A DNA stretch of 41,006 nt, from contig JAFSBZ010000009.1 in the NCBI GenBank assembly GCA_017437005.1, positions 1 to 41,006 of the forward strand. The letters are read 5' to 3'. The notes beneath the pieces were generated by a model. The model was not told the origin of the DNA. It saw only the letters and a list, made by a program, of their open reading frames with translations, and did not search any database. Positions 36,776 to 40,765 of this stretch are shown piece after piece. Position 1 is the first letter of the stretch. Every line of letters begins with the position of its first letter. This DNA comes from Clostridia bacterium (lineage in GTDB: Bacteria; Bacillota; Clostridia; Oscillospirales; Acutalibacteraceae). The position numbers were made by a program, and so were the translations under genes.

Positions 36776-37273
36776 TTATGAAAGCACACCGTTTTTATCG
36801 CAAGAGAGGGAAATAGGAACTTCCATAGTTTGTGTGGTTATGAATAAAGTCTTTTTCTTAAACACACCTACAGCGCTTGCGGTATTACCCGATTTACTTG
36901 TGGTTGATGAATCTAATGACCAGCCATTTGAACAATCACTGGCGCTACAGCTAACCGCAGTACAGGTGGCACTAACACCTTCATTTACACTAAATGTTCC
37001 GTTGATTTTAAACTTATACATAACTTCGCCAGAACTATTTTTAGCTGTGTGTGTTTTACTGCCACTTACTGTTCTTGTTGCGCGTGTTTGTTTTTGATTT
37101 AGATATTGTGTTATGGTTGTTGTTATTGAACTGCCGTCTTCGAGATATTCGGTTGTTTCGCTTATTACTATTTCGTTATCTGCTAATCCTTGGTCTGTTG
37201 TTGCAAAAACATTAAAGTTAAATAAACAGCTTAAAATAATTAACGATAAAACTATAAGTAAAAATTTTTTCAT
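36776..37273 (-). CDS. Small secreted protein of unknown function
   Basis: A 165-residue protein with a clear signal peptide (basic start, hydrophobic 4-17, likely cleavage after FNVFA near 24). The mature part is Ser/Thr-rich, predicted beta-strands, with four Cys close together (CTAVSCSASDCSNGW and a final CDKNG) that could form disulfides. I do not recognise the family. It begins two bases after the HAAS-like membrane gene ends, and the PadR gene is first in this leftward set, so the three are co-transcribed. Its control by PadR suggests a role in envelope or signal response. Confidence 0.75.
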   Translation of the reverse strand: MKKFLLIVLSLIILSCLFNFNVFATTDQGLADNEIVISETTEYLEDGSSITTTITQYLNQKQTRATRTVSGSKTHTAKNSSGEVMYKFKINGTFSVNEGVSATCTAVSCSASDCSNGWSLDSSTTSKSGNTASAVGVFKKKTLFITTQTMEVPISLSCDKNGVLS

Positions 37274-37275
37274 TT

Positions 37276-37653
37276 TTATTTATCCCTTTCATATGTAATT
37301 TCGTTATTATAATAAACAGGAATATTTTTTTCGTTTTCAATATAAATATATATCGCTAGTGAAGCAGTAATTACTAAAATTGCTACAAGTATAGAGATTA
37401 CAATCGCAGTAATACGTTTTTTAAATTTGTAAGATTTTACAAAAGAATTGTCAATGCCTACGGCAAATTCTTTTGCAATGTTTTCCGCTGTGCCAAAATG
37501 CTGTTCAATTTGGGTAAAGTCGGTAATGTTGTTTTCGTCTATAAAAGTATTTACCGATACTTTTAAATCATTAAGCATTTTGCGCATGGCTGAGTTTAAA
37601 CAGGGCAAATTTTTCTTTATGTCTTTAAAATAGCTTTGTAATTGTTTTTGCAT
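37276..37653 (-). CDS. HAAS/DUF1700-like membrane protein paired with PadR
   Basis: A 125-residue protein with an N-terminal cytoplasmic helical domain (1-80) whose pattern of small helices, ending with EQHFGTAENIAKEFA, is that of HAAS/DUF1700-type proteins that pair with PadR. A single membrane segment follows (about 82-106), then a short outside tail. The name DUF6120 may also fit; I cannot search. Its start overlaps the PadR stop at 37653, so translation is coupled. In known cases the membrane partner modulates the PadR regulator; that is inferred here. Confidence 0.72.
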   Translation of the reverse strand: MQKQLQSYFKDIKKNLPCLNSAMRKMLNDLKVSVNTFIDENNITDFTQIEQHFGTAENIAKEFAVGIDNSFVKSYKFKKRITAIVISILVAILVITASLAIYIYIENEKNIPVYYNNEITYERDK

Positions 37654-37997
37654 TAGTTTTTGCCCTCCTCGTTTTCGCCTAACACAAGCAAAATACCGTT
37701 GTGCATTGAAAAATATTCTTGTTTAATTTCATTTAGGTAGTCGATACCCGCCTGCTCTATGTGATAGTAAACTCGTGTTCGACGTTTACCAACTAATTCG
37801 CTACGGTCGGTAATACAACCTTTTTCTATCAAACGGTAAAGCACAGGGTAAAGCGAGCCCTCGGTTACAACGTACATACCGTGACTAAGTTCCTTTAATT
37901 GTTGGCATATTTCATAACCGTACATATCCTTTTTGCTTAAAAGCGACAACAGTGCCAGCTCTATTGTGCCGCGTTTAAGACCTTCGGCAATACCCAT
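37653..37997 (-). CDS. PadR-family transcriptional regulator
   Basis: A 114-residue PadR regulator with the winged helix motif IELALLSLLSKKDMYGYEICQQL (in two parts, about 12-34), the recognition part GSLYPVLYRLIEKG near 47-60, and the wing GKRRTRVYYHI. The coiled dimerisation helix (about 85-105) is short. PadR proteins repress exporters or stress genes until a ligand binds. It begins a leftward three-gene unit and is divergent from the caspase-like unit, sharing a 9-bp inverted repeat over both -35 boxes. Confidence 0.93.
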   Translation of the reverse strand: MGIAEGLKRGTIELALLSLLSKKDMYGYEICQQLKELSHGMYVVTEGSLYPVLYRLIEKGCITDRSELVGKRRTRVYYHIEQAGIDYLNEIKQEYFSMHNGILLVLGENEEGKN

Positions 37998-38027: not shown

Positions 38028-38056
38028 AAATTACCATAATTATTTTGGCTTGTCAA
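38028..38056 (-). promoter_or_regulatory. Promoter of the PadR unit
   Basis: On the minus strand TTGACA (38051-38056) and TAATTT (38028-38033) are separated by 17 bases. The ATG at 37997 is 31 bases downstream. Confidence 0.85.
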
Positions 38057-38085
38057 TACTTTATGACACAAAATATTATTGACAA
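38050..38085. promoter_or_regulatory. Inverted repeat over both -35 boxes (candidate PadR operator)
   Basis: TTGTCAATA (38050-38058) and TATTGACAA (38077-38085) are perfect 9-bp arms around an 18-base centre, so the two divergent -35 elements are symmetric. A single regulator bound here could control both units. PadR is the natural candidate, although the arms do not obviously match the ATGT-N8-ACAT pattern known for PadR. Confidence 0.6.
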
Positions 38086-38107
38086 ATTTATATTTTTGTG
38101 CTATTGT
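38079..38107 (+). promoter_or_regulatory. Promoter of the caspase-like peptidase unit
   Basis: TTGACA (38079-38084) and TATTGT (38102-38107) are separated by 17 bases. A hairpin GGTATA/TATACC (38119-38141) lies near the 5' end of the expected transcript. Confidence 0.82.
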
Positions 38108-38162: not shown

Positions 38163-38279
38163 ATGCACGAGTTTAATGAAACACACTATTTATCATTAAA
38201 ACGAGGAGAAAGGAAAAATGATAAGAAAAATTATATCGGTATTGCTATGTGTTGCAATATTGCTGACGTTGTCGTTTAA
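38163..38279 (+). CDS. Short leader ORF overlapping the peptidase gene
   Basis: ATG at 38163 has a strong ribosome binding site GGGAGTG six bases upstream and encodes 38 residues, MHEFNETHYLSLKRGERK..., ending at 38279. It overlaps the start of the next gene (38218) by 62 bases in another frame. The ribosome binding site of the next gene lies inside it, so translation of the leader may control access to it. No similarity is recognised. It may be only a regulatory leader and not a stable peptide. Confidence 0.5.
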   Translation: MHEFNETHYLSLKRGERKNDKKNYIGIAMCCNIADVVV

Positions 38280-39804
38280 TATATCGGCAGAAGAACAATC
38301 ACAAACAAAAAATATTCCAATTACAAGTGAAATTACAGTAAATGTTGAAGAAAACAATGATATTGTTATAACTGAACCTATAATGCCCGTTGATGATGGT
38401 GTATCACTTGTCGCAACAGGCGCTACACCTATAGGACATTTAGATACTGTAAACTCTTCGATTATAGGTGGTTGGGCATATCAGAGTGATGTACCAAACA
38501 CGCCACTTGATGTTCACATTTATATTACAAACAATTCAACAGGAGAGCGAGTGGGTTTTGCAACAATCGCAAATGGTTATCGCGCCGATTTGGCTGCAGC
38601 GGGCTATGGTAACGGTTATCACGCTTTCCAGCATAATATTAGCTGGATGGCATATAAACCGGGAACATATACCGTGCGGGCTTATGCTATAGGTGTGAAC
38701 AGCAATAATCCGGAATTGTATAGTTCACCTAAAACCTTTACGGTAAGGGATATGCAGGGTAACGTGGAAAGAGCAACGGACGAAATTATAGGCTGGGCTT
38801 GGAAACCCGATGCACCTAACGATGCGGTAGAGGCTCACATTCACATTGTTCAGGGTGGTACCGTGCTGGATATAATAACCACTTCCGCTAATCGCTATCG
38901 TGAGGATTTAGATAATTTAGGGTATGGCAATGGTTATCACGGTTTTAAAACTGCAATCGACTGGAGCCAGTATCCCGAAGAAAATTTACGCCTTATAGTA
39001 TATATGTATGACGGCAGTGGTTACTCACCTGTACTTTATGATGGATATTATGAGAATAGAATGCCGATAACATTGTTGGGTATGATTGATGGAAAAGGAA
39101 TAGACCATTCAACATGGATATGGGAAAGCAATACTACAACTTATTGCGAAAATATAGGCTGTTCTCAATTGAATCGATATAATTATGCAGATGCAACGAA
39201 CGTAAATTATTCGTATAGTAGATTTATAAAAGAATCGTCTTTTTGTGCGATAGCTACGCATGGAAACAAATATGGCATACAGTGGAGTATGAGAAATATT
39301 TACAACGGACATGACGATTGTGATGATACTTGCACTACTTGTTTTGGTAGCTATAATACAACGTTTTTAAACACAATGTCTGATGATTATTTTGCTGACA
39401 CAAGGTGCGTGGTTTCGATTGCATGCGAGACCGCGAAAGGCGGAGGAGCAGACTCAACCAATTTTGTGAACGTGTTACAAAGCAAGGGCGTTAAAACTGT
39501 TGTGGGATTTGAGGAAAAAACTTGGTTTTTTTATAACACGGAAACACTGCAAACAATAACTACAAAAGGTTCTTTTAAGTGGATGAACGAATTTGTAAGG
39601 TTATTAAGCGAAGGTTACACTGTAGATTATTCCGTCGCCAAAGCGTACGAAGAAACACTGCTCATTAATCTTGCTGCCGCTGGCTATACAGAGGAACAAT
39701 ATGAAAGTGGAGATATTCCAGAAGATGTTTTAATTAAAGAAGTAATTTGTGGATTAGATAGTTATTGCGTAGTAGGCGACGGTAGTCAGGTTATTAAACA
39801 TTAA
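38218..39804 (+). CDS. Secreted caspase-like (clan CD) protein with two tandem repeats
   Basis: A 528-residue secreted protein with a signal peptide (hydrophobic 5-20, likely cleavage after NISA at 24). Two related domains follow (about 72-176 and 178-281), sharing the words IIGGWAY/IIGWAW, then YRADLAAAGYGNGYHAF / YREDLDNLGYGNGYHGF. The last third (about 285-528) has the features of a caspase/gingipain-like fold: a hydrophobic strand ending in His348-Gly (AIATHGNKYG) and a second ending in Ala-Cys403 (VVSIACETA). These would be the catalytic dyad. Three Cys cluster at 368-375. The ATG has GAGGAGAAAGG upstream. A membrane-anchored partner follows 19 bases later. Confidence 0.75.
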   Translation: MIRKIISVLLCVAILLTLSFNISAEEQSQTKNIPITSEITVNVEENNDIVITEPIMPVDDGVSLVATGATPIGHLDTVNSSIIGGWAYQSDVPNTPLDVHIYITNNSTGERVGFATIANGYRADLAAAGYGNGYHAFQHNISWMAYKPGTYTVRAYAIGVNSNNPELYSSPKTFTVRDMQGNVERATDEIIGWAWKPDAPNDAVEAHIHIVQGGTVLDIITTSANRYREDLDNLGYGNGYHGFKTAIDWSQYPEENLRLIVYMYDGSGYSPVLYDGYYENRMPITLLGMIDGKGIDHSTWIWESNTTTYCENIGCSQLNRYNYADATNVNYSYSRFIKESSFCAIATHGNKYGIQWSMRNIYNGHDDCDDTCTTCFGSYNTTFLNTMSDDYFADTRCVVSIACETAKGGGADSTNFVNVLQSKGVKTVVGFEEKTWFFYNTETLQTITTKGSFKWMNEFVRLLSEGYTVDYSVAKAYEETLLINLAAAGYTEEQYESGDIPEDVLIKEVICGLDSYCVVGDGSQVIKH

Positions 39805-39823
39805 TTAGAAGGAGAGGATATAA

Positions 39824-40765
39824 ATGAACAAAAGGAAAATTTTATTATTTGGAGTAATAGTATCGTTGTGCGTTGCAGTTGGTTTTACGACCAACGTAAA
39901 AAGGGAAACGCCAATCCAAAAAGCGTATGAAAATACAAACGAAAGTTCAATCCTTGTTGAAGATGGTGAAATTGAAATTTTAAATCAAAATAAAGATAAT
40001 GTAACGCAGAACGAAACTGCTCAAATTAATTCACAAGAAAACGCTGAAAAAACAACTGATATTGTACAACAAAGCGAAACATCATTTTCAACAGAAGTTT
40101 CAACTGGAGATTTTATATCCGCGGAAGACAAAGCGGTAAAATCCGAAATATCGAAATATGTTGATACAAAGGTGGATTTTAGATTAAATAGACAGGAAAA
40201 AATTAACCAAAAAACGTTTAATCTCACTTTTTTTGAAATGGAAAACATTATAGAAAATAATGAAAAGGTAGTGTATAAAAACGAATCGGAAGATATTTTT
40301 AAATATGACGCAAAAAGCGGAAAACTGCGCGAAGCAATAATCAATTCGGTTGTTACACAAAAAACAAATGAAAGCATCGATGAAAATACAGCGCAAAAAA
40401 TCGCCATAGAATACGCGAAAACAAAATATGAAACAGATGCATACAAGCTATATTCGTGCAAAGAAACAACCAAAGGGCATAATTATATTTATACAAGATA
40501 TATTGGTGGATATCCCAGCAGTGACAAATTTTCTATTAAAGTAGGATATGATGGTAATATAGTTTACGTTAGCGATTTCACGGATACGTTTGACAGCAAA
40601 GAATTGAATTACAGCAAAGAATTTATAGATTCAAAAATAAAGGAATATTCTGATGAAACAAAGGTTGATTGGAATAGTATAACAATTTGTATTCACGAAG
40701 GAAAAGTAGCTGTAAAATATACAGAACCTGAACAGTGTGCAATAGCAATACTTCCTCTTGAATAG
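39824..40765 (+). CDS. Membrane-anchored PepSY/YcdB-like partner protein
   Basis: A 313-residue protein with a single N-terminal hydrophobic segment (6-23) serving as an anchor or signal. A long Asn/Gln/Glu/Thr-rich linker (about 30-100) leads to a domain at roughly 105-310. The part around 190-260 (ENTAQKIAIEYAKTKY, then YIYTRYIGGYPSSDKFSIKV, GYDGNIVYVSD) resembles YcdB/PepSY-type modules, some of which sit in peptidase propeptides and may inhibit. The resemblance is by eye only. GAAGGAGAGG precedes the ATG. Coupling to the upstream caspase-like protein suggests an inhibitor, chaperone or surface partner. Confidence 0.6.
   Translation: MNKRKILLFGVIVSLCVAVGFTTNVKRETPIQKAYENTNESSILVEDGEIEILNQNKDNVTQNETAQINSQENAEKTTDIVQQSETSFSTEVSTGDFISAEDKAVKSEISKYVDTKVDFRLNRQEKINQKTFNLTFFEMENIIENNEKVVYKNESEDIFKYDAKSGKLREAIINSVVTQKTNESIDENTAQKIAIEYAKTKYETDAYKLYSCKETTKGHNYIYTRYIGGYPSSDKFSIKVGYDGNIVYVSDFTDTFDSKELNYSKEFIDSKIKEYSDETKVDWNSITICIHEGKVAVKYTEPEQCAIAILPLE

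Follow-up and report, generated by a model that had tools for sequence, protein, structure and literature searches.

At the end of contig JAFSBZ010000009.1 of a Clostridia bacterium (assembly GCA_017437005.1, family Acutalibacteraceae) lie two neighbouring open reading frames (ORFs), ORF A and ORF B, which are the subject of this work. The window, that is the whole stretch of 41,006 nucleotides that was analysed, is the complete contig; the genome comprises 1.97 Mb in 49 contigs, and this one stops 241 base pairs (bp) past ORF B. A first-pass annotation of the same DNA had drawn both frames, and both are found as drawn, on the same strand with a gap of 19 bp. Purine-rich DNA precedes each start (gaggagaaaggaaaa-ATG for ORF A and aaggagaggatataa-ATG for ORF B). 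The features of the pair are as follows.

38218..39804, + strand: ORF A, 528 amino acids (aa), with a signal peptide, two tandem modules and a C-terminal CHAT-like domain
38218..38289, + strand: predicted signal peptide of ORF A, residues 1-24 (...NISA/EE), from hydropathy, cleavage site judged by eye
38434..38721, + strand: module 1, residues 73-168, GYGNGYHAF type, from the repeat alignment
38758..39039, + strand: module 2, residues 181-274, GYGNGYHGF type, from the repeat alignment
39058..39801, + strand: CHAT-like C-terminal domain, residues 281-528, from profile comparisons and the dyad alignment
39259..39261, + strand: codon of His348, predicted catalytic histidine of the His-Gly motif, from the alignment
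39424..39426, + strand: codon of Cys403, which in the Ala-Cys motif is the predicted nucleophile, from the alignment
39824..40765, + strand: ORF B, 313 aa, a membrane-anchored DUF4901/YcdB-like partner
40268..40567, + strand: DUF4901 match in ORF B, residues 149-248 (PF16244, E 2.4e-6)

The domain at the C-terminus of ORF A carries the motif residues H348, G349, A402 and C403. In a full-length alignment of 21 sequences the only invariant columns are H348, G349, C403 and G424, so the placing of the His-Gly and Cys is not a matter of chance. A wider set of 38 aligned rows includes the window as well as L088 and L089, two probably ordinary CHAT-like proteins; here the histidine is kept in 34 rows and the cysteine in 35, the exceptions being L055 and L087 (without both residues), L081 (without the cysteine), and L031 and L088 (gapped at the histidine). 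Most homologues therefore keep each of the two residues that the first-pass annotation had picked out as His348-Gly and Ala-Cys403. At the two loci where both catalytic residues are gone, the gene downstream that corresponds to ORF B is missing in one (L055:3401-4105) and kept in the other (L087:3297-4469).

Several comparisons place this domain with the CHAT proteases. The Pfam CHAT model (PF12770) matches 8 of the 21 members at E ≤ 0.01, and among ten proteins listed singly two pass its cut-off of 24 (L048 with 25.2 bits and L056 with 26.6 bits). When the profile of the 21 members was compared with a profile of four canonical CHAT domains, the score was 90.5% (E 1.3e-6), on a scale where CHAT against caspase C14 gives 50.4% and a negative control, the partner alignment, gives 0.3%. 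The resulting alignment puts the His-Gly and Ala-Cys of the domain onto CHAT's own motifs. A search of the PDB with the same profile returned three matches only at E ≤ 10, namely CHAT 8tl0 (0.024), CHAT 8rot (0.061) and separase 5u1s (0.76), all of which belong to the caspase/separase superfamily; with a four-member profile the matches, none of them below E 0.035, were to designed proteins and a single ESX protein. The single-sequence AlphaFold2 model of the domain was unusable, with a mean predicted local distance difference test (pLDDT) of 35.1 and a predicted template modelling score (pTM) of 0.23. Judged by its sequence, the domain is a divergent CHAT domain of the caspase/separase superfamily. 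The first-pass annotation had called it a His/Cys domain of clan CD type; this stands, narrowed to CHAT-like, and its candidates caspase C14 and gingipain (the latter judged by Pfam only) are not supported.

The domain is sparsely distributed. With a four-sequence profile, built from the window and three relatives, it turned up in 4 of the 70 genomes sampled from the genus and in 17 of 394 from the order (E ≤ 1e-3); the 21-member profile picked it up in 11 of 391 from the class (E ≤ 1e-4). The window's own genome is counted each time. One CHAT-like ORF (L042:4815-8057) starts like an ABC transporter membrane protein, PF00664 matching 1 of the 21 members (which one was judged by eye); it is either a fusion or an assembly fault.

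In front of this domain, ORF A starts with a hydrophobic, signal-peptide-like segment (hydropathy 3.12 over the best 14 residues), and its cleavage site was placed by the usual rule. The two modules that follow share 35 of 94 residues (37%) with an alignment score of 161, the best of 300 shuffles reaching 47. Both the exported protein and the two tandem repeats of the first-pass annotation are thus borne out. Pfam offered only Y_Y_Y for ORF A, at E 0.14, and an NCBIfam search gave no match. In relatives, modules of this type also accompany GH25 lysozyme and Amidase_3 wall-hydrolase domains, and this company points to wall or glycan binding by the N-terminal part of ORF A. Nine plasmid records matched ORF A, all of them confined to residues 32-274 in the N-terminal part. 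Phage records gave no match, scans of viral contigs confirmed no relative, and neither did two genome scans at contig level.

The same two modules are also found with another C-terminal domain, in M14-carboxypeptidase-like secreted proteins at three loci of genome G044 (L003, L009 and L013; the M14 match, at E about 1e-3, falls short of the Pfam cut-off). These loci, perhaps a second effector/partner array, also hold small anchored neighbours in tandem and a C-terminal copy that is shortened.

ORF B has a hydrophobic N-terminal anchor without a lipobox cysteine, and its match to DUF4901 (YcdB/YcdC) scores 28.1 bits at a cut-off of 27. Among 20 partners of CHAT-like domains, DUF4901 is found in 5 at E ≤ 0.01 and in 9 at E ≤ 1. 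A PepSY/YcdB-like anchored partner had been proposed; the anchor and the likeness to YcdB hold, and the PepSY identity does not, as Pfam gives DUF4901 for ORF B and nothing nearer to PepSY than PepSY_like, at E 0.84, in 1 of the 20 partners.

The pairing of the two genes is widely conserved. A relative of ORF B lies downstream of 31 of the 38 domain-bearing ORFs, on the same strand and starting within 250 bp of the ORF end. Twenty of these 31 pairs were used to build the partner profile; among the 18 ORFs outside it, 11 matched. The co-directional partner of the first-pass annotation is thus one that stays adjacent across genomes. The seven misses are of several kinds. In L051 the domain is shortened and no partner lies within 5 kb, in L055 partner and dyad are both missing, and in L081 only 250 bp of contig remain past the domain ORF. 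L083 and L084 have interrupted frames, with a partner match about 0.6 kb further on in L084, and L088 and L089 have neither a signal peptide nor a partner match. Two further loci yielded no domain ORF in this tally, L034 with a strong partner match (E 2.4e-33) and L090 with a weak one in the signal region only. Matches of the partner profile near E 1e-5 in many relatives span the signal region only and were set aside uncounted. When the partners were trimmed of their first 45 residues, 19 of the 20 were still recovered by leave-one-out profiles at E ≤ 2e-4, and no other ORF came below 0.002.

Domain and partner also tend to be related in parallel. The nearest relative is the same for both in 11 of 20 pairs, with a Mantel r of 0.60 that was reached in 0 of 2000 permutations. 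Genomes G110 and G382 hold three pairs each, and in three of these six (G110a, G382a and G382c) both genes have their closest relatives in a single pair from a different genus. This co-relatedness fits cognate specificity, and common descent by itself could account for much of it.

Upstream of ORF A, and divergent from it, lies an operon headed by a PadR-family regulator. Its genes, and the features of the DNA between the regulator and ORF A, are listed here.

37653..37997, - strand: PadR-family regulator, divergent from ORF A (PF03551, E 3.7e-20)
37276..37653, - strand: DUF6120 membrane protein, possible HAAS-type partner of PadR (PF19615, E 1.3e-6)
36776..37273, - strand: small secreted protein of 165 aa, encoded third in the PadR operon and serving as a marker of the site in relatives
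38050..38085, no strand: operator-like palindrome TTGTCAATACTTTATGACACAAAATATTATTGACAA in the DNA between PadR and ORF A, conserved in five species with differing cargo
38079..38107, + strand: promoter-like TTGACA-17-TATTGT for ORF A, overlapping the operator-like site (15 such sites in the region against a shuffle mean of 13.2, not above shuffles)

The bit scores are 72.1 for PadR and 28.8 for DUF6120, each against a cut-off of 27; compared by eye, the DUF6120 protein has G-T-A/P where HAAS has GxP. The first-pass annotation had suspected PadR-linked control, and the conserved palindrome supports the linkage to PadR. An intergenic block, TTGTCAATRCTTTNNNNNACAAAAYATYRTTGACAA, is common to five species despite different downstream genes. 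With up to three mismatches, the operator pattern occurs in 7 of the 70 congeneric genomes, once in each, and a reversed-pattern control in none. The pattern had been read from five of the seven; the two new sites, in G012 and G034, have three mismatches and both stand beside PadR. A GGGGACGGTT-type motif near the window end is not above chance (3 matches, a number reached in 6 of 100 shuffles).

What was missed in the first-pass annotation is that the PadR-linked site is a slot whose cargo, a secreted effector with an anchored neighbour, varies from species to species. The family of the small secreted protein was not recognised; it marks the site in 6 of the 70 genomes including the window's, the copy in G020 being a fragment at a contig end. 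A CHAT-like protein with a DUF4901-type partner lies beside PadR in the window, in G011 and in contig C43 of G009 (G009:C43, known from the PadR gene at the contig end). In G032 the cargo is a protein with a ricin-type lectin, the module and another C-terminal domain, next to a SurA-like gene (E 6.4e-5, below the cut-off). G075, whose small PadR-operon protein is the most like that of the window (82%), holds a secreted papain-like protease of C39 type (C39/C70, E 1.9e-10; L134:4574-6137) with a neighbour of 327 aa that appears anchored by eye. The cargo of G012 is a 2268 aa RHS-dockerin-ricin protein with a C-terminal cell-wall hydrolase domain (E 8.9e-7); its neighbour, lipoprotein-like by eye, runs off the stretch examined.

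The effectors themselves carry signs of exchange. In their N-terminal parts, a ricin-type lectin with the module, the proteins of G011 and G009:C43 are 73% identical, and either is 66% identical to that of G032. The C-terminal parts of G011 and G009:C43 are both CHAT-like and only 27% identical, and each is unrelated to that of G032 (scores 28 and 45, shuffle maxima 53 and 48). A constant N-terminus with a variable C-terminal effector, as in polymorphic toxins, is therefore present in these three. The downstream gene that goes with such toxins is present by adjacency, in the 31 of 38 cases counted above, and would be cognate.

Orphan or tandem partner genes are known from two loci only, L127 and L079. 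G032 has a truncated orphan relative of ORF B (L127:7215-7637, 140 aa, E 8.8e-21), 3 kb past its non-CHAT effector, and adjoining it a gene (L127:6264-7016) that we take to be transposase-like. G706 (L079:2866-12311) has two CHAT-like/partner pairs, the second with an effector frame that looks interrupted, and behind them in tandem at least two further genes like that of the partner (L079 10176-12311, from partner-profile matches at E 1.9e-16 and 1.7e-5). According to the available part of PMC9484751, type VII systems are known to have immunity genes in strings.

We consider it slightly better than an even bet that ORF A is a polymorphic-toxin-like secreted CHAT protease and ORF B its cognate anchored inhibitor or immunity protein, the two forming one of several interchangeable cassettes of the PadR slot. 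A bolder version, which we put at a little under even, is that each strain would carry, in a PadR-gated exchangeable slot, a single secreted hydrolase together with its own dedicated membrane-anchored guard. An extracellular CHAT protease would be one such cargo, DUF4901 proteins would be the immunity family that goes with it, and the whole would belong to the polymorphic toxins, in a form whose proteases are Sec-exported and bind wall or glycan. In such a system a PadR switch, presumably by binding the operator-like site, would open the divergent promoter. ORF A would leave the cell by the general export pathway and be held near glycan or wall by its N-terminal modules. As a CHAT-type cysteine endopeptidase with the putative dyad His348/Cys403, it might then cut surface proteins. 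ORF B, on the outer face of the producer's membrane, would bind and block the protease or shield its targets. The producer would thus be spared and the cuts would fall on neighbours or on other surface proteins, which would amount to antagonism between bacteria.

A number of observations weigh against the toxin/immunity interpretation. The window's own domain has no Pfam match up to E 0.5, the score with CHAT drops to 67.5% when the profile is restricted to the five close sequences, and none of the PDB matches is significant. As the Pfam CHAT model, run alone on 60 relatives, also finds 0 of 60 at E ≤ 0.001, we regard the domain as a divergent CHAT branch. The cysteine is missing in 3 of 38 aligned domains (L055, L087 and L081), two of them also without the histidine, so not all relatives can be proteases. 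Between the window and G072 there is no contrast of the two ends (46% identity in front, 37% behind), and no PadR gene lies in the stretch examined for the G072 pair, so that the occurrence of the pair does not depend on the slot. In G034 (L164:305-2355) the operator and PadR are accompanied by a gene that looks DUF6120-like by eye, by a short ORF and by a gene for a membrane protein, and no secreted effector was recognised beside them. The contig G009:C70 begins inside ORF A, with the upstream side off the contig, and the partner of G400 fails the leave-one-out search (0.59). Finally, conserved pairing would also be expected of a surface-remodelling or feeding protease with its inhibitor.

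This last point leads to the strongest alternative, which we think unlikely and nonetheless worth serious attention. Here ORF A would be a secreted CHAT-type protease for surface remodelling or for digestion of host or diet glycoproteins, and ORF B a chaperone, activator or inhibitor, not an immunity protein. YpeB, the partner of SleB, would be one precedent and PepSY propeptides another. The DUF4901 match of ORF B is in keeping with this, as are the lectin, immunoglobulin-like and carbohydrate-binding-module domains of relatives and a weak match of the partner profile to a PepSY-M4 propeptide in the PDB (9vy3, E 0.028, not the top match). In the available part of PMC2954215, PepSY-type proteins are proposed as inhibitors of co-encoded hydrolases. 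However, behind one operator stand effectors that are unrelated to each other, and their anchored neighbours are unrelated too; this fits toxin and immunity better, and so do the orphan and tandem partner genes.

It is improbable that the CHAT-like domain serves in binding or signalling and is not proteolytic, as the loss of the dyad in L055 and L087, that of the cysteine alone in L081 and the remoteness of CHAT detection for the window protein might suggest; the histidine and cysteine are among only four invariant columns and are kept in nearly all of the 38 rows. We give still less credence to a caspase (C14), clostripain (C11) or gingipain (C25) in place of CHAT. Such enzymes share the His-Gly and Ala-Cys motifs, and the available part of PMC12445089 gives the clostripain active-site motif as His-Gly ... 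Ala-Cys and lists separase in clan CD. Against the 90.5% for CHAT, however, the 21-member profile scored 18.1% with twelve C14 domains and 0.2% with nine clostripain C11 domains. No member matched C14, C11 or C25 at E ≤ 0.01, the gingipain case being judged by Pfam only and not by profile comparison, and the PDB search gave only CHAT and separase. That two unrelated exported proteins stand side by side by chance is hardly credible, given the pair kept at most loci inside and outside the partner profile and the leave-one-out recovery. A defence-system reading was dropped, as PADLOC had no match for ORF A or ORF B.

If the toxin/immunity interpretation is true, CHAT proteases would be placed outside the cell, and anchored proteins of the DUF4901/YcdB type would gain a testable function. 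A single-operator site with species-specific secreted effector and guard genes within one genus would furthermore provide a handle for finding more pairs. Among the matches listed in the open-access literature on CHAT, YcdB/DUF4901, HAAS-PadR, clostridial clan CD and polymorphic toxins, judged by title and start of abstract, no paper deals with the ORF A/ORF B pair.

The CHAT proteases known so far are mainly intracellular death, separase-like and CRISPR-associated enzymes, and the canonical CHAT proteins are cytoplasmic and linked to tetratricopeptide repeats (TPR). ORF A resembles the family (PF12770) in the order His-Gly then Ala/Ser-Cys, in a profile match that aligns both motifs, and in a similar C-terminal part with the consensus KGAxTVxGF ... 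W..xF ... G.T..xA. It differs in that proteins of its type are exported and linked to lectin or wall-type modules, and in that the window protein is too divergent for the Pfam model. The regulatory genes are reminiscent of the HAAS-PadR dyads, proposed as an alternative to two-component systems in the available text of PMC11237479 and also of PMC12419801. As there, a PadR gene is followed by a small membrane protein of similar kind; here it is DUF6120 instead of the DUF1700, DUF1129 or DUF1048 named in the accessible part of PMC11237479, and no known sensor domain was seen in it. Hydrolase/inhibitor pairs of the SleB with YpmB, PepSY-propeptide kind, as far as the available part of PMC2954215 describes them, likewise consist of an exported hydrolase and, encoded next to it, a partner with a small domain, although the enzyme fold is another and the partner here is DUF4901, not PepSY, by Pfam. 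Polymorphic toxins come closest to our preferred reading. In its available part, the 2012 survey of these toxins (PMC3482391) does not name CHAT and has no anchored DUF4901 partner or PadR-controlled slot. The same part of the survey lists caspase-like domains among C-terminal toxin domains, including Sec-exported ones, and RicinB domains on such toxins, and the likeness extends to the Sec-exported carrier, the lectin domains, the variable C-terminal domain, the downstream partner gene and the orphan partners.

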